From contig JAKATK010000001.1 in the NCBI GenBank assembly GCA_021827995.1, positions 62,001-126,000 on the forward strand: a DNA stretch of 64,000 nucleotides. Reading direction: 5' to 3'. Source of the DNA: Microcaldota archaeon. GTDB lineage: Archaea; Micrarchaeota; Micrarchaeia; Micrarchaeales; Micrarchaeaceae. A program made the position numbers and the translations under genes. The notes beneath the pieces were generated by a model. The model ran no database searches and was not told where the DNA came from. It saw nothing but the letters and a program-made list of their open reading frames with translations. Below are positions 8,491-59,865 of this stretch, one piece after another. Each line of letters begins with the position of its first letter. Positions within the stretch are counted from its first letter, which is position 1.

Positions 8491-9750
8491 ATGATGTTGA
8501 GCTTCCTCGGCGGCGCGAGCGAGGTGGGGCGCTCCGCCATACTGCTGAGGGACAAGAGATCCTTCCTCCTCGACTTCGGGGTCAAGCTCGATGACAAGAC
8601 GGAGTATCCGCTAAACGTGCCACGCATAGACGCGTGCATACTGAGCCACGCGCACCTGGACCACTGCGGTTACGTGCCGGCAATCTACAAGGACCAGTTC
8701 GTGCCTGCGCTTGGTACCGAGCCGACACTAGGCCTAGCCGAGCTGCTCCTGCAGGATTCAATAGGCGTGGCCAAGAAGCGGCACGTCAACGCCGGGTTCA
8801 ACAAGCGCAACATAAAGACGTTCAAAGACATGTACAGGCCGATGCGCTACAGGTCGCCGCACAACATGGGCGAGTACACGATAGAGCTGTTCGACGCAGG
8901 GCACATCTGCGGCAGCGCCATAACTAAGATAGAGCGGTCGCAGGCGACGGACAACAGGAGCATAGTCTACACCGGCGATTTCAAGGTGCAGGAGCAGCTG
9001 CTTCACGGAGGCGCCGAGACGGTAAAGTCCGACCTGCTCATAATGGAATCTACGTACGCGACCAGGGAGCATCCGGACAGGCAGGAGACGATGCGAAGGT
9101 TCGTCGGCGAGATCAAGGAAGTCCTAGACAACGGCGGCAACGCCCTACTGCCGGCGTTCGCTGTAGGCAGGAGCCAGGAGCTCCTCGCCATACTGTACAA
9201 GAACGGCCTGGCCAGCTCAACCTACATAGACGGCATGGCAAAGGCTGCGACGTCAATCGCAATAAACAACAGCGTGTTCCTCAGGAACGGCGACTCCCTC
9301 AGGCGCGCGGTCGAGGAGGCCACGCTCGTTGACGGGCCCGGGACGCGCACCGAAGCCTTGAGCGGACCGTCCGTAATACTGACCACGGCCGGCATGCTCA
9401 ATGGCGGTCCGGTCATGCACTACATAAGGCGGTTGGCCGAGGGTTCGCGCATATTCCTAACCGGTTACCAGATAGAGGGCACGAACGGCCGCAGGCTGCT
9501 CGAGACCGGCACTATAGTCGACGAGGGCGAGACCATGAGGGTACCGTTCCCAGTCAGCTTCTTCGACTTCTCCGCGCATGCAGGCATGGACGAGCTGTAC
9601 GATTACATTAAGAGGAGCTCTCCAAGCACGGTTGTCTGCGTCCATGGCAGCGAGGAGAGCGCAGCCGCGCTAGCCGAGGGGCTGAGGCAGGAAGGCGGCT
9701 TCGAGGCCTACGCACCGCACGTCGGCGATACGATTAAGCTTGGTGATTGA
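8491..9750 (+). CDS. Beta-CASP metallo-beta-lactamase RNase (aCPSF2-like)
   Basis: A 419-residue metallo-beta-lactamase/beta-CASP nuclease. The zinc motif HAHLDH is at residues 53-58. Later metal ligands are in DAGHICGSA and YTGDF, and beta-CASP motifs are visible in MESTYA, FSAHAG and VHGSEE. There is no N-terminal KH extension, so it fits aCPSF2 or archaeal RNase J rather than aCPSF1. Such enzymes act in mRNA 3' processing or 5'-3' decay. A TATA-like TTTTAATA at 8453-8460 gives a very short leader. Its stop region GGTGATTGA overlaps the ribosome-binding site of pyrH, so the two genes are coupled. Confidence 0.83.
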   Translation: MMLSFLGGASEVGRSAILLRDKRSFLLDFGVKLDDKTEYPLNVPRIDACILSHAHLDHCGYVPAIYKDQFVPALGTEPTLGLAELLLQDSIGVAKKRHVNAGFNKRNIKTFKDMYRPMRYRSPHNMGEYTIELFDAGHICGSAITKIERSQATDNRSIVYTGDFKVQEQLLHGGAETVKSDLLIMESTYATREHPDRQETMRRFVGEIKEVLDNGGNALLPAFAVGRSQELLAILYKNGLASSTYIDGMAKAATSIAINNSVFLRNGDSLRRAVEEATLVDGPGTRTEALSGPSVILTTAGMLNGGPVMHYIRRLAEGSRIFLTGYQIEGTNGRRLLETGTIVDEGETMRVPFPVSFFDFSAHAGMDELYDYIKRSSPSTVVCVHGSEESAAALAEGLRQEGGFEAYAPHVGDTIKLGD

Positions 9751-10705: not shown

Positions 10706-10823
10706 TGCCAAACGGTAATAGGGGCGGGGCAACGCCCGATCCCATTCCGAACTCGGAAGCTAAGCCTGCCTACGATACGTGTGTACTGCCTTAACGGTGG
10801 GAAAGCGTATTGCTGTTTGGCAT
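10706..10823 (+). rRNA. rrf: 5S ribosomal RNA
   Basis: About 118 bases. The conserved core CCCATTCCGAACTCGGAAG followed by CTAAGCCTGCC is unmistakable. The 5' TGCCAAAC pairs with the 3' GTTTGGCA to form helix I. A T-run (10823-10827) follows directly and can act as terminator. It has its own TATA box and is about 46 kb from the 23S gene. Confidence 0.95.
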
Positions 10824-10909: not shown

Positions 10910-10943
10910 CATGCACCAATAAGTCTGCCATCCGGGTGTTTAA

Positions 10944-11807
10944 GTGACTCTAGACATGATAGCAGACTGCGTTGACGAGTCCGGCAACCCCGCGGTACTG
11001 ATAAGGGCTGATACCCGCGAGACGATAATAAGGCTAGAGGCCAGGCCTGGCCAGGAGCGCCCAGCCTATGTCGAGACCTACAACGACTGCGTCAACAAGA
11101 CCGAGATAATGTCCAAAGGCGTCTGCCTCGCATGGTCCGGCGACGAGGAGATGATAAAGCCTGTCAGGGACCTGCTCAGGATATTCGCGCCACTGCTAGA
11201 GCGCGATGGCCTTACAGACAAGCTCATGGCCATGATGACCAACTCGCTCTTCTTCGCAGGCGAGCACACCGGCGCGGACCGCAAGGGGATGCTCCGTGTG
11301 GCCGACCTTCTCGTCGGCGTTCGCGATTCACATGGTAACGTGCAGATGCTGCGCGTACTCGTCAAGACTCCGGGTATGTCGTACGGCAACGTTTACCATT
11401 CCCAGACCGACGCGGAGGTGCAGAGGCTCGATCAAGCGTTTGCGGTCGGCCTTGACTTAGAGGGGCCCAACGCGGCTCTTGATACGATCCGCAAGCAGTG
11501 GTTCGGCCATTCGACCGCTGGCCACAGCATGGATGTCGTCGGTGCAATGATGGAGGAAGTCATAAACTACGAGTTGGTGCACGATCCCAACAGCAGGTAC
11601 ATAAACGACAGAGCAACCTACATATTGGTGTCAAGGGATGGCATAAGGCAGCTGAGCGAGCTCGAGGTCGCCAGGTTAATGGAGGCCCGCAAGAGCATAG
11701 TTAACAGCGGGCTGGACCGGATAGTGGCCGTAGCAGAATATGAGAAGGCGACCGCTCCCAAGGCGACCGACACTATGCACAGGTCAAAATCTCGCAATCC
11801 CGCCTGA
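10944..11807 (+). CDS. Proteasome-fold (Ntn hydrolase-like) protein, paralogue 1
   Basis: A 287-residue protein I cannot assign to a named family, but whose layout resembles proteasome beta/HslV subunits. After the GTG start comes Thr2 (MTLDMIADCVDESG). Then AVLIRADTR matches the VLAADRR strand, with the Asp at the place of proteasome Asp17 if Thr2 is Thr1. Next are a GVCLAWSGDEE segment (IGVAFAG-like) and DLLVGVRDSHGN. The C-terminal INDRATYILVSRDGIRQLS resembles the last strands of the fold. Removal of Met would expose Thr. The Lys33 equivalent is not obvious here. The paralogue downstream is about half identical by eye. The fold is inference; the gene itself is certain. Confidence 0.55.
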   Translation: MTLDMIADCVDESGNPAVLIRADTRETIIRLEARPGQERPAYVETYNDCVNKTEIMSKGVCLAWSGDEEMIKPVRDLLRIFAPLLERDGLTDKLMAMMTNSLFFAGEHTGADRKGMLRVADLLVGVRDSHGNVQMLRVLVKTPGMSYGNVYHSQTDAEVQRLDQAFAVGLDLEGPNAALDTIRKQWFGHSTAGHSMDVVGAMMEEVINYELVHDPNSRYINDRATYILVSRDGIRQLSELEVARLMEARKSIVNSGLDRIVAVAEYEKATAPKATDTMHRSKSRNPA

Positions 11808-11876
11808 GCTGTGGCACGGTCGGATTCCTGCATATTATAAGCGACGCCGCATTTCCTGCCTTTCTGCCGCCCATTC

Positions 11877-11892
11877 TCAAAAGGTATTAAAT
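11877..11892 (+). promoter_or_regulatory. Promoter element of the second proteasome-fold-like gene
   Basis: TCAAAAGGTATTAAAT, nearly identical to the element before the first paralogue. Predicted start is about 11913, a few bases before the ATG at 11920 and 19 bases before the in-frame GTG at 11932. Confidence 0.5.
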
Positions 11893-11919
11893 ATTCCACA
11901 AAATAAGCATATATAGAAA

Positions 11920-12846
11920 ATGGGTGGGGTTGTGACTCTAGATATGATAGCAGAGTGCGTCGACGAATCCGGTCAACCCGCGGTGCTGATAAGGGCGGAC
12001 AGGCGTATGACAATAATAAGCATGAAGATGGGGCCCGGCGATGAGGGGCCGACCCAGACTGAAACCTACAATGATGATGTCAACAAGACCGTCATAGTGT
12101 CGAATGGCGTAGGCGTCGCCTTTGCCGGGGAGCCGGAGATGGGCTACCTTGCGGTCGACGTGATAAGACACTTCGCCAACCAACTCGAGAAGGACGGCAT
12201 AACGCAGGAACTCGGCCAGAAGATTGGAGCATCGCTCGCGCTAGCGGCATCACAGATGGGAGCCAGTGGGGAAGGCCTCACTCACAGCGCCGACCTGTTG
12301 GTTGGGGTAAGGGCAAATGACGGTCGCGTCAGCATGTTCCGTGCCGTAGCTATAACTCCTGGTGTGTTGTCAATGTCCGGCGATGGCTACAACCCGGCGC
12401 CAAGGGTCTCTATGCAGATAGTCAAGGCGCCCACCGCCATCGGGCTAGACGTCACGGAACCAAACATAGTGCTCCACAAGACGCTGCACGAATGGTTCGG
12501 CGACCCGAGGATGGGAGAGAACACGGCTGGGCACAGCATGGACGTTGTCGGGGCTTTCCTAGAGAATGCGTTCGACTACGAGTTGGAGCACAACCCAGAT
12601 GCGCAGTACATAAACGACAGGGCAACCTACCTTCTCGTATCGAAGGACGGCACCAGGCAACTCAGCGATGCCGAGGTGATGAGGTTTAGGGAGCTCAACG
12701 AGCGCATAGTCAACAGCAGGCTGTCGCCGCGTCACGCCGTTGCTCAGATAGAGCTATCGGAGGCCACGGCCAAGAAGAGGGTCAGTGACGCCGAAGCCTC
12801 GCCACAGAGCGGGCAGACCAGCGACAGGACGAAGACCACAGCCTGA
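11920..12846 (+). CDS. Proteasome-fold (Ntn hydrolase-like) protein, paralogue 2
   Basis: A paralogue of the preceding gene, 308 residues from the ATG, or 304 from the GTG at 11932. The GTG start gives M-T-L-D-M and lines up with the start of paralogue 1. It keeps the proteasome-like signature better: AVLIRADRR, a Lys eight residues after that Asp (near the Lys33 position), and GVGVAFAGEPE. It then has DLLVGVRANDG, a helical AGHSMDVVGAFLENAFDYE, and INDRATYLLVSKDGTRQLS. A polar tail follows. Likely origin is tandem duplication including the promoter. No partner or substrate is visible. Confidence 0.55.
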   Translation: MGGVVTLDMIAECVDESGQPAVLIRADRRMTIISMKMGPGDEGPTQTETYNDDVNKTVIVSNGVGVAFAGEPEMGYLAVDVIRHFANQLEKDGITQELGQKIGASLALAASQMGASGEGLTHSADLLVGVRANDGRVSMFRAVAITPGVLSMSGDGYNPAPRVSMQIVKAPTAIGLDVTEPNIVLHKTLHEWFGDPRMGENTAGHSMDVVGAFLENAFDYELEHNPDAQYINDRATYLLVSKDGTRQLSDAEVMRFRELNERIVNSRLSPRHAVAQIELSEATAKKRVSDAEASPQSGQTSDRTKTTA

Positions 12847-12901: not shown

Positions 12902-13384
12902 ATGATAGTGTACAGGCTTGACGTCGACAGGTTCGAGTACGAGCTGATGGAGTCCGGTGCGGCCCCGCACGAAGAGTACAGCAAAAAGCACGGCTCCGTG
13001 TCCAACGCCGTTGTCATGCTCGTAACCGTGGAGCGCGGCGATACCGATGCGATAGCAGACCAGGCCATAAACGATATCATCGGTTTCATGTCTAAGGTAA
13101 AGGAACCGAGGCTCCTGATATGCCCATTCACGCTCAGCATGGATCCAGCAGGCCCAAAGGAAGCAATCGCGCTAATGGACCGCATGCGCAACGCTGTACC
13201 AGATGGCATGCAGGTGGAGAGGGTGCCCTACGGCTGGATAGCCAGGGTGTCGATGAGCATAAAGGGCCATAAGGACGCGCAATGCCTGCTGACCTATGCG
13301 GCAGCCAGGGAGCCAGCGCATCCCGGGCCGATACTAGGCCCCAAGACCGAGCAGCGCCACGAGCACGGCCACAAGCCCAGGTGA
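12902..13384 (+). CDS. Stand-alone archaeal ThrRS-type editing domain protein
   Basis: A 160-residue protein matching the N-terminal editing domain of archaeal threonyl-tRNA synthetases, a D-aminoacyl-tRNA deacylase-like fold that removes Ser from tRNA-Thr. Recognisable parts are RFEYELMES, NAVVMLVTVERGD, the central PRLLICPF strand and GWIARVSMSIKGHK near the end. No catalytic synthetase follows; the protein ends in a His-rich tail. Free-standing versions exist in some archaea as trans-editing factors. Compared with the P. abyssi domain as I recall it, the catalytic His and the Lys after the GW motif are replaced here, so activity is uncertain. It lies 55 bases after the proteasome-like pair. 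Confidence 0.7.
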   Translation: MIVYRLDVDRFEYELMESGAAPHEEYSKKHGSVSNAVVMLVTVERGDTDAIADQAINDIIGFMSKVKEPRLLICPFTLSMDPAGPKEAIALMDRMRNAVPDGMQVERVPYGWIARVSMSIKGHKDAQCLLTYAAAREPAHPGPILGPKTEQRHEHGHKPR

Positions 13385-56999: not shown

Positions 57000-57017
57000 G
57001 GAGAAGAGACTTGCAAA
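57000..57017 (+). other. 5' arm of 23S processing stem
   Basis: GGAGAAGAGACTTGCAAA, perfectly complementary to 59854-59871. The stem joins the two ends of the pre-23S transcript for processing. Confidence 0.8.
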
Positions 57018-59865
57018 CTGATCAAACCACCTAGGGGATGGCTTGGCTATAGCCGCGATGAAGGTCGTGGCAAGCTGCGATAAGCCCGGGGTAGCCGCAA
57101 GTCGGGCTTTGAACCCGGGATGACCGAATTGTGCTAGCAATGGCACGCGAACGCGGGGAATTGAAATATCTTAGTACCCGCAGGAGAAGAAAGAGCATAT
57201 CGATGCGGCGAGTAATGCGAATGAAAGCCGCACAGGGCGCACCGAATCCTGCCTTGCAAAAGGCGTGGAGATGTGGCGTGGCGTTTGACCCAGGACACGA
57301 GCCGAAGGCGTTGGAAAGCGCCGTCATAGAGAGTGACAGCCTCGTAGGCGAAGTGCGATGGGCATTGCCACATGCGAGTAACACCGCCCGAGTACGCGGT
57401 GCGAAGATGGGGGCATCAAACCCTAACCCTAAATATAGGCTATAGACCGATAGCGAACAAGTACCGCGAGGGAAAGCTGAAAAGAACCCACACGCGTGGG
57501 GCTGAAAAGATCTGAAACTAGGTGGTGAAATGAAGGCAGAGCGCGGAAGGAATGAAGCGCGCAGAAGCCAGGACTCGAGAGGGTCCGGCGATGCGCGATG
57601 ATCAGTGTTCTGCCATTCTTCTTGAAGCAAGAGCCAGGGAGTGTATGGGCGTGGCGAGCCGAAAGGCGAAGCGAAAGCGATAGCGCGCAGGCAACGAGGC
57701 GCGAGGTACGAAAGTGCCTTAGTCACCACCATACGACCCGAAGCCGCTGTGATCTACGCGTGCCCAGGACGAAGCTAGGCTAACGCCTGGTGGAGGTCCG
57801 CCACCTGTCATGGCATGTCCTGTTGGGTGAGGTACGGGTAGCGGCGATATACCACTCGAACGCGGCAATAGCGGGTCCCCTCTGAAGTATCTTTAGGATA
57901 GCTCCAGGTGAGCTTGCACGCGCGGTAGAGCTACCGAATAGGGTGAAAGGAGTCGAAAGGCTCCACACTCTTATCGAACTCCGAATGCGCGTGCTGCGTA
58001 GACCCTGGGAGTCGGCGAGGCTGGGTAAGCTAGCCCCGCGAGACTACAAAGACAGTGACCATGGTTAAGGCCCCCAAATCCTAGTTGAGTGTAACGAAGG
58101 TGGGGAGCGCCTTAGACAGCTGGGAGGTAGGCTCAGAAGCAGCCATCCTTCAAAAAACGCGTAATAGCGTACCAGTTGAGGCGTCCCTTGCCGAAAATAT
58201 ACGGGGCTAAACTAGGTGCCGAGACCATGGAGGTCGCAAGACCTGGTAAGAGGGCGTGCGGCGCGGCTGGAAGTGTGTCCGAAAGGACGCATGGACCGCG
58301 TCGCAGGGAAAATCCTGGTGTTAGTAACAGCATATATGGGTGAGAATCCCATACACCTTAAGCACACGGGTTTCTTCGCAACGCTCGTCAGCGGAGATTT
58401 AGGCGGTCCTAAGCCGCAGGCCAATCACCTTGCGGCAAAAGGGAAGCTGGTCAATATTCCAGCCCCTGACATGTAGGCGCGGCGACGCAAGGCGGATTTC
58501 TGACGCATGGGGATAGCCCCGAAAGACGGTGCAAAGGGCTGCGGAGTCTCGTTATGAGGGGAGGCAGCTAAATGAACCAATGGGGTGAATTCCTGTGCCA
58601 GTGAAAAGGGAATCCGCAACGATCATGTCAGTCCGTACCTAGAACTAGTACAAGTGTTGCTGGCTGAAAAGGCCGAGGTGTGACGGGATAACCGTGGTTA
58701 GGGAAATCGGCAAATTAGTGGCGTAAGTTTTCGACAAGCCATGTCTGCGCCTGGTAAGCGCAGATGTCACTAGCAAGGGGACAACGACTGTTTATCAAAA
58801 ACACAACTCACCGCAAAGCCGGAAGGCTTAGTACAGTGGGTGACGCCTGCTCACCGCCAGTACGTGAACGCCCTTTTCAAGGGGAATAAGCGCTGGCAAA
58901 GAGCGGGAGTAACTCTGACTCTCTTGAGGTAGCGTAATACCTCGTCACTTAATAGGTGACTTGCATGAAGGGCGTAACGATTGTCCCACTGTCCCAACCA
59001 CGGACCTGGTGAACTCACTGCGCGGTGAATATGCCGCGATCTCTCAGTGGGAAATGAAGTCTCCATGAAGCTTGACTATAGCCTGTAGTTGTTGCACGAT
59101 GGGCCATGCATAGCGTAAGCGGGAGCGTCGAAGCGGGGGCTGCGGCCCCCGTGGAGCGACAATGTAACACCGCTCTTGGTCTGTCGTGCGGCTAACGCGA
59201 AAGCGGACAGCTGCAGGTGGATAGTTAGACTGGACGGTTGCTTTCGATAAGGAAACGAAAGTGGCCAATGCTCTGCTTAGGCGGGTTGGGAACCCGCCGT
59301 TAAGCGAAAAGGCAAATGCAGGGCTGACTGTATGCCGAAAAGCGTGGCATGCAGACCGGAAACGGGGGCTTAAGGAACGTCGGTAGCTCTTTTGATGGGG
59401 CTCCGAGCTGTCAAACAAGTTACTCTGGAGGTAACCGATTCGTCGCGGGTGAGCGCCCACAGCGACCCCGCGGATTGATACATCGATATGGGCTTTGGTT
59501 ATCCTGGTGGTGCACAAGCTGCCAAGGGTTGGACTGCTCGTCCATTAAAAACCAACACGAGCTGAGTTCAGTACGTCGCGAGACAGTACGGTAATATCTA
59601 CTGGGAGTGTCAGTGCCGGAGGATAAGACCCCCTTAATACGAGAGGAACGGGGGATCGGCGCCTCTAGTGGACCGGTTGTGAACGCATTGCCGGGTAGCC
59701 ACGCGCCAAACGGATAAGTCCTGAAAGCATCTAAGGACGAAGCTGTACCCGAAACGAGGCACTAGGGCGGTCGCAATAGACGACTTTGATAGGACGGGTG
59801 CGTAAACAGGAAGCTCACGCGACCTGCGAACATACCGTTACTAAAGCCTAACTTTTGCAAGTCTC
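57005..59865 (+). rRNA. rrl: 23S ribosomal RNA
   Basis: About 2.86 kb; ends approximate. Conserved blocks are seen from end to end: GGATGGCTTGGC and GGCAAGCTGCGATAAGCC near the 5' end, the helix 69-71 region GGTAGCGTAATACC at 58928-58941, peptidyl-transferase sequences GGGTTGGACTGCTCGTC near 59525, and the sarcin-ricin loop AGTACGAGAGGA-like TAATACGAGAGGAACGGG at 59635. An 18-bp perfect stem (57000-57017 with 59854-59871) closes it as the processing helix. No intron is apparent. ORFs read across it are artefacts. Confidence 0.96.

Follow-up and report, generated by a model that had tools for sequence, protein, structure and literature searches.

What are two adjacent archaeal genes whose products resemble proteasome beta subunits and carry a threonine directly after the initiator codon? 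The pair lies in a stretch of 64,000 nucleotides (hereafter the window; G000:C20:62001-126000) from a Micrarchaeota genome of 1.26 Mb that is 88% complete in 22 contigs. A sequence-only reading had proposed a catalytic/non-catalytic pair of Ntn hydrolases, in an archaeon, separate from the classical proteasome and possibly new.

Both tandem genes were found at the place where they had been reported, on the forward strand. Copy 1 (10944 to 11807) encodes a propeptide-less proteasome-beta-like protein of 287 aa, opens with GTG-ACT and has Thr as residue 2. An in-frame TAA stands immediately 5′ of this GTG; thus, an N-terminal extension is impossible, and the Thr must come after the initiator Met. 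The mechanical ORF of copy 2 spans 11920 to 12846 and starts at an ATG (11920), which places MGGV ahead of a GTG at 11932. Judged from the sequence, the GTG is the better start than the ATG four codons upstream, giving a propeptide-less proteasome-beta-like protein of 304 aa (11932 to 12846) with Thr again as residue 2. A Shine-Dalgarno-like GGGTG, read directly and putatively functional, lies five bases 5′ of the copy 1 start (10934 to 10938, forward strand). The same GGGTG stands five bases 5′ of the copy 2 GTG (11922 to 11926, forward strand; function likewise putative), where it overlaps the rival ATG. Common to both copies is GGGTG, five bases and GTG-ACT-CTA-GAY-ATG-ATA-GCA-GA. We preferred GTG 11932 because this arrangement matches that of copy 1 and because nearly all members of the family described below start next to the Thr. 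With this start, the Thr stands directly behind the start codon in both copies, as had been proposed. The strand motifs noted earlier are present, although only copy 2 has VLIRADRR and GVAFAG in exact form; the copy 1 counterparts are VLIRADTR and GVCLAWSG.

The pair is flanked by a 5S rRNA gene and a free-standing archaeal threonyl-tRNA synthetase (ThrRS) editing domain, the latter just downstream of copy 2 at 12902 to 13384. A second copy of the editing domain lies within a 565-aa frame at G000:C21. The 5S (10708 to 10821) and 23S rRNA genes (57008 to 59863) are on the same strand with 46 kb between them. At 8491 to 9750, a short beta-CASP nuclease of 419 aa, covering only positions 177 to 630 of the 631 of the aCPSF1 model, adjoins an archaeal UMP kinase gene. 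In two other genomes of the genus, G001 and G004, a gene that we take to be a Ski2-like helicase comes just after the orthologue of the pair. Since the neighbours are inconsistent between the window and G001/G004, inference of function from the gene context of the pair was dropped.

We predicted the structures of both proteins using AlphaFold2 (copy 1, pLDDT 92.5 and pTM 0.88; copy 2, pLDDT 92.1 and pTM 0.87). Each predicted model has a beta-sandwich core with flanking helices, and the top structural matches were proteasome subunits, in agreement with the proteasome-beta (Ntn-hydrolase) fold suggested from the strand order. A Foldseek search of the PDB with the copy 2 model returned proteasome chains. 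With VIA-align 2, this model aligned with 1q5q_H over 203 residues (Z 19.2, rmsd 3.1 Å), and the copy 1 model aligned with 3h4p_a over 195 residues (Z 18.1, rmsd 2.8 Å). Residue 2 was the first aligned residue in both models and lay opposite Thr1 of 1pma_1; the predicted superposition would therefore place the Thr to become Thr1 upon Met removal, as had been supposed. Helices were predicted at the H1-H4 places in both models, including 68-80, 82-88 and 92-109 in copy 2 and 68-88 and 92-109 in copy 1; the copy 2 model also has C-terminal helices at 246-260 and 266-289. Five matches at E < 0.001 came from a viral structure library, one of them annotated as a phage 'proteasome beta type-2 subunit'.

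The claim of a pair proved too narrow, as both copies do stand together but belong to nine paralogues in G000. A single-sequence search of 148 genomes detected relatives in four, each of which belongs to the genus. Profile A2, built from 8 rows, gave 9, 10, 3, 7 and 6 matches in the five genus genomes G000, G001, G002, G003 and G004, and one weak match in each of another 11 genomes of the order, for a total of 16 out of 164. With profile A4 (32 rows), 34 places scored 181-307 bits, corresponding to 9, 9, 3, 7 and 6 copies in the same five genomes. G002 and G004, treated as two species, are identical over two 8.7-kb stretches, so that the data represent four distinct lineages and the 34 intact copies comprise 32 distinct members. 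Profile A4 also matched the classical psmB of each of the five genomes, at 19-25 bits. Across the phylum (301 genomes, 296 of them outside the genus), no family member was found outside the genus, where the best score among the matches listed in E-value order was 37.7 bits. Five outside-genus matches were inspected; three were classical psmB, and two (in G076 and G127) were other proteasome-like orphans. Within the order, two genera besides this one have a single proteasome-like orphan each, with a Thr near a possible start (L094:1358-2299 and L095:2017-2718); both orphans neighbour the new clade in the tree described next. In a genome-contig search, copy 2 alone gave no relatives, and the window orthogroup gave only two loci, both of the genus.

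The 32 members were placed in a tree together with the two orphans, seven PsmB and one PsmA, and we read the orthogroups from it. The members fell together on one side of a branch (support 94/88), adjacent to the two orphans, and the branch to PsmB/PsmA had support 100/97. Twelve orthogroups were distinguished in the five genomes. The window orthogroup consists of both window copies and one orthologue each in G001 and G004 (support 100/100); G003, which is 96% complete, has no member of it.

The Thr-adjacent start was common in this family. Homologues were checked for long N-terminal extensions before the Thr, and the Thr directly follows ATG or GTG in 30 of the 32 members; 19 have no other in-frame ATG, GTG or TTG back to the upstream stop. 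At L058:4024, GGG precedes the Thr, and an upstream ATG would give a 7-aa leader ending in Gly, like proteasome propeptides. ATA precedes the Thr at L063:4492. At the other end of the proteins, [LM]LR occurs about 20 residues from the terminus in 16 of 32 members and 8 of 12 orthogroups, a motif chosen after looking at the tails; in 2000 tail shuffles, the number of orthogroups averaged 0.89 and never exceeded 5. A blind test of tail 3-mers was not significant (best count 8; shuffles, mean 5.6 and maximum 10). We treat the motif as a lead. The C-termini of members are often Lys/Ser-rich.

The relation to the proteasome was clearer for the whole family than for the pair. Neither copy matched Pfam, PF00227 included, or a proteasome model of NCBIfam, where no meaningful match was obtained; single-copy searches of PDB sequences likewise gave no meaningful match for either. 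PF00227 was found in 9 of the 32 members at E ≤ 0.1. Among PDB sequences, profile A4 matched eukaryotic proteasome beta subunits at a best E of 3.7e-6; its position 2 coincided with the first residue of mature beta type-7 chains. In hhalign, A4 aligned with seven PsmB of the phylum at 97.1% (E 6.6e-11), and the window orthogroup alone aligned poorly (32.9%, E 4.6e-4). Given this poor alignment and the lack of a Pfam match, the pair is linked to the proteasome through the wider family and through the predicted structures.

The conserved core of the proteasome-like family is Thr1 (or Ser1), Asp17, Lys33 and Gly47 (PMC8665760). We located these positions by alignment, all on the forward strand. 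In copy 1, the codon of the putative nucleophile Thr1 is 10947 to 10949 (model residue 2 on residue 1 of 1pma_1), and the equivalents of Asp17, Lys33 and the oxyanion-hole Gly47 are Asp23 (11010 to 11012), Lys52 (11097 to 11099) and Gly66 (11139 to 11141) of the ORF. In copy 2, the Thr1 codon is 11935 to 11937 (model residue 2 opposite the first residue of both 1q5q_H and 1pma_1), followed by Asp23 (11998 to 12000), Lys52 (12085 to 12087) and Gly66 (12127 to 12129). All four residues are kept in 32 of 32 distinct members, both window copies included. In members without loop insertions, they fall at 1, 17, 33 and 47 or 48 in proteasome numbering. The only invariant columns of alignment A4 are Thr2, Gly14, Asp23, Lys52, Gly66 and Gly171 (copy 2 numbering), and the mean column identity is 23%. 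Active-site conservation is therefore above chance, as the catalytic four and two glycines alone are invariant at this identity. The place of Ser129, as read from the alignment, holds Ser in only 1 of 32 members, and the Asp166/Ser169 region has no invariant column among the 32. Thus, the site is not identical to that of the proteasome.

These results bear on the proposal that copy 1 is a dead partner of copy 2. Copy 1 had been described as having no obvious Lys33, but the Lys52 of its VNKTEI segment is the Lys33 equivalent and is invariant in the family. The tandem order and the 50% identity of the two copies over 282 columns are reminiscent of alpha/beta pairs. On the other hand, copy 1 has all four catalytic residues and an equally confident model, and the orthogroup is single-copy in G001 and G004, so a pair is not required. 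With Thr1, Asp17, Lys33 and Gly47 intact in both copies, the catalytic/non-catalytic pair was left unsupported and we rejected it; we consider a dead partner very improbable.

The segment between Asp17 and Lys33 differs from that of classical beta subunits. In copy 1 (11013 to 11096), it forms in the model an extended beta hairpin, with strands 26-32 and 41-47, that is 13 residues longer than in classical beta; copy 2 (12001 to 12084) has an equal extension with the same strands. Both segments were delimited by alignment on the forward strand. Asp17 and Lys33 are 13 to 43 positions apart in family members versus 16 in classical subunits (-3 to +27), the window pair being at +13. We take the hairpin site to be the place between strands 3 and 4 at which connectase has its specificity insertion (PMC8665760), and the hairpin may select substrates.

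We compared the family with known relatives. It shares with PsmB (3h4p of Methanocaldococcus, 1pma of Thermoplasma), the subunit that builds heptameric rings with PsmA, the fold and Thr1, Asp17, Lys33 and Gly47. PsmB of the genus has a propeptide ending in MKG before TTT, whereas family members are propeptide-less; the family proteins are 262-391 aa long, the Ser129 place is not conserved, the hairpin of the window pair is 13 residues longer, and identity to archaeal beta chains is 12-15% in structural alignments. Connectase is likewise an archaeal proteasome-like orphan without propeptide, with an insertion near the active site between strands 3 and 4 (PMC8665760). It lacks helices H1-H2, and its insertion consists of two helices (PMC8665760). 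In contrast, the window pair has predicted helices at the H1/H2 places, and its insertion would be a longer beta hairpin. Anbu, which is bacterial (PMC8665760, Table 1), resembles the copy 2 model in fold (Z 17.9 with 5nyg and 17.8 with 5nyw, 203 residues each) and in a C-terminal helix past the last strand, with a sequence identity of 10-11%. In Anbu, a long C-terminal coiled-coil helix mediates assembly into a split ring.

Fuchs, Alva and Lupas 2021 distinguished 22 orphan proteasome-like subfamilies (WPH, PHI, ACC, PMI-1 to PMI-6 and others), and archaeal and bacterial orphans without propeptide were described there as a kind (PMC8665760). By description, these subfamilies resemble the present family in being divergent and propeptide-less, in having the conserved triad and Gly47, and in often co-occurring with other homologues. 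The survey gives no function for the 22 subfamilies, and the parts of it that we consulted do not describe an expansion to 12 orthogroups within one genus (PMC8665760). Literature searches on connectase/DUF2121, Micrarchaeota proteasomes and DPANN Ntn hydrolases also yielded no description of this subfamily or expansion. Accordingly, the novelty suggested for an archaeal Ntn system may hold for the subfamily, of which we found no description, but not for the kind. Together, the models and the sequence comparisons suggest that the window copies are probably active, intact propeptide-less proteasome-like enzymes of a subfamily expanded within one genus, which we could not match to a described one.

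We surveyed the genus for the machinery with which such enzymes might act. Classical psmB was detected in all five genomes and psmA in four. Both are found elsewhere in G000, which shows that the window pair is a separate system, as the sequence-only reading had held. No proteasome-activating nucleotidase exceeded the cut-off in the five genus genomes; the best matches to the nucleotidase model were double-AAA, Cdc48-like proteins, named from frame length and two matches per frame. A type II methionine aminopeptidase exceeded the family cut-off in four of the five genomes, G000 included. Type II methionine aminopeptidases remove Met before Thr.

The most likely reading, which we regard as reasonably probable, is that the family is a set of Thr1 peptidases or ligases, each specific for its own substrates. 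The cell's own type II methionine aminopeptidase would remove the Met and so expose Thr1, with no need for autoprocessing. With Lys33 and Asp17 activating it, the hydroxyl of Thr1 could then attack a peptide or isopeptide bond, and an acyl-enzyme would form over the Gly47 oxyanion hole. This intermediate may be resolved by water, as in a specific peptidase, or by another amine, as in a ligase such as connectase. Each paralogue would act on its own narrow set of protein substrates, chosen through the Asp17-Lys33 hairpin, rather than in bulk degradation.

The main rival is a general degradative particle, in which the paralogues would form rings, alone or mixed, and degrade proteins in bulk, either unaided or together with a Cdc48-type ATPase. 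H1-H4 mediate inter-subunit contacts in the proteasome (PMC8665760), and the helices at these places in both models are consistent with such rings, as is the finding of only Cdc48-like double-AAA proteins with no proteasome-activating nucleotidase over the cut-off. However, a classical proteasome is already there, the variable active-site hairpin suggests divergent specificity, and the sets of paralogues differ between lineages, with a remnant left in G001, which is ill-suited to a fixed heteromeric ring. We therefore regard such a particle as unlikely. The remnant (L092:4016-4471) belongs to orthogroup 7, lies in the syntenic place and spans 152 residues (38.7 bits with A4); it retains the N-terminal Thr segment and the basic tail.

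The wider Ntn clan includes amidohydrolases of small molecules and non-protein amides. By this precedent, the proteins could be amidohydrolases on a proteasome fold, and the window pair has no known protein partner. Against this, the relatives detectable by sequence or structure are proteasome subunits, HslV or Anbu, and loop divergence at the site would fit macromolecular substrates better. An amidohydrolase function therefore seems quite improbable.

We then considered how the family has diverged. In 9 of 9 computable pairs of 12 tried, dN was lower than dS (dN/dS 0.06-0.46), a ratio that is only a loose bound because dS is near saturation. Orthologues often lie in conserved gene neighbourhoods. 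Eight orthogroups provided 19 syntenic pairs, and in 15 of these the identity between orthologues was below the median of their neighbours; the pairs in this count are non-independent, with 1-6 neighbours each, and orthogroups 4, 9, 10 and 11 were left out. Divergence was strongest in orthogroup 7 (38% versus 64-92% for the neighbours), and the opposite direction was observed in orthogroup 12 and in one pair of orthogroup 6. This faster divergence would also fit Thr1 proteins retained in a non-enzymatic role beside the classical proteasome, as its regulators, adaptors or decoys. We attach hardly any weight to this explanation, as decoys should lose the catalytic residues, and these are among the sole invariant positions of the family.

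A viral or plasmid origin was rejected, as the searches gave no relative of the window orthogroup in viral contigs and, with one member searched in each set, no match in phages or in plasmids. A viral-contig match of the orthogroup 12 member L115 was read as chance, the ORF being repetitive and tail-fibre-like. A defence role was also set aside, since the one PADLOC match among the 32 members (E 0.0078) was taken as chance.

Some members have a constant neighbour. Orthogroups 4, 5 and 6 have six members between them, and directly downstream of each lies a gene for one protein family of about 150 aa (150-160 aa, longer in L048). This family comprises exactly six genes in the five genus genomes, with no further copies (alignment A7): L047:4935-5384, L055:4950-5411, L063:3119-3580, L052:2419-2886, L069:2626-3090 and L048:5130-5819. 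They share the motif NIYFGxP..SDKAFHL, and the three of the six that were scanned had no significant Pfam match. No gene of this family lies alongside the window pair. The partner protein is possibly a substrate or an activator of the orthogroup 4-6 enzymes. Returning to the reading of substrate-specific peptidases or ligases, one may extend it to a multi-gene Thr1 system in which each orthogroup has its own substrate by way of the hairpin, some act with an operon partner, and the set is renewed as genes arise, disappear and diverge rapidly, in the manner of biological conflicts. We put this forward tentatively; it is possible, though we lean against it.

Few relatives of the proteasome, a central cellular machine, are as poorly understood as its orphan homologues. 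Nine propeptide-less paralogues with intact sites in one small genome offer a natural series for studying substrate choice, assembly and ligase-versus-protease chemistry, and the constant operon partner of orthogroups 4-6 is a practical starting point for finding a substrate or binding partner. Should the enzymes prove to be specific ligases, they could be considered as new tools for joining proteins.
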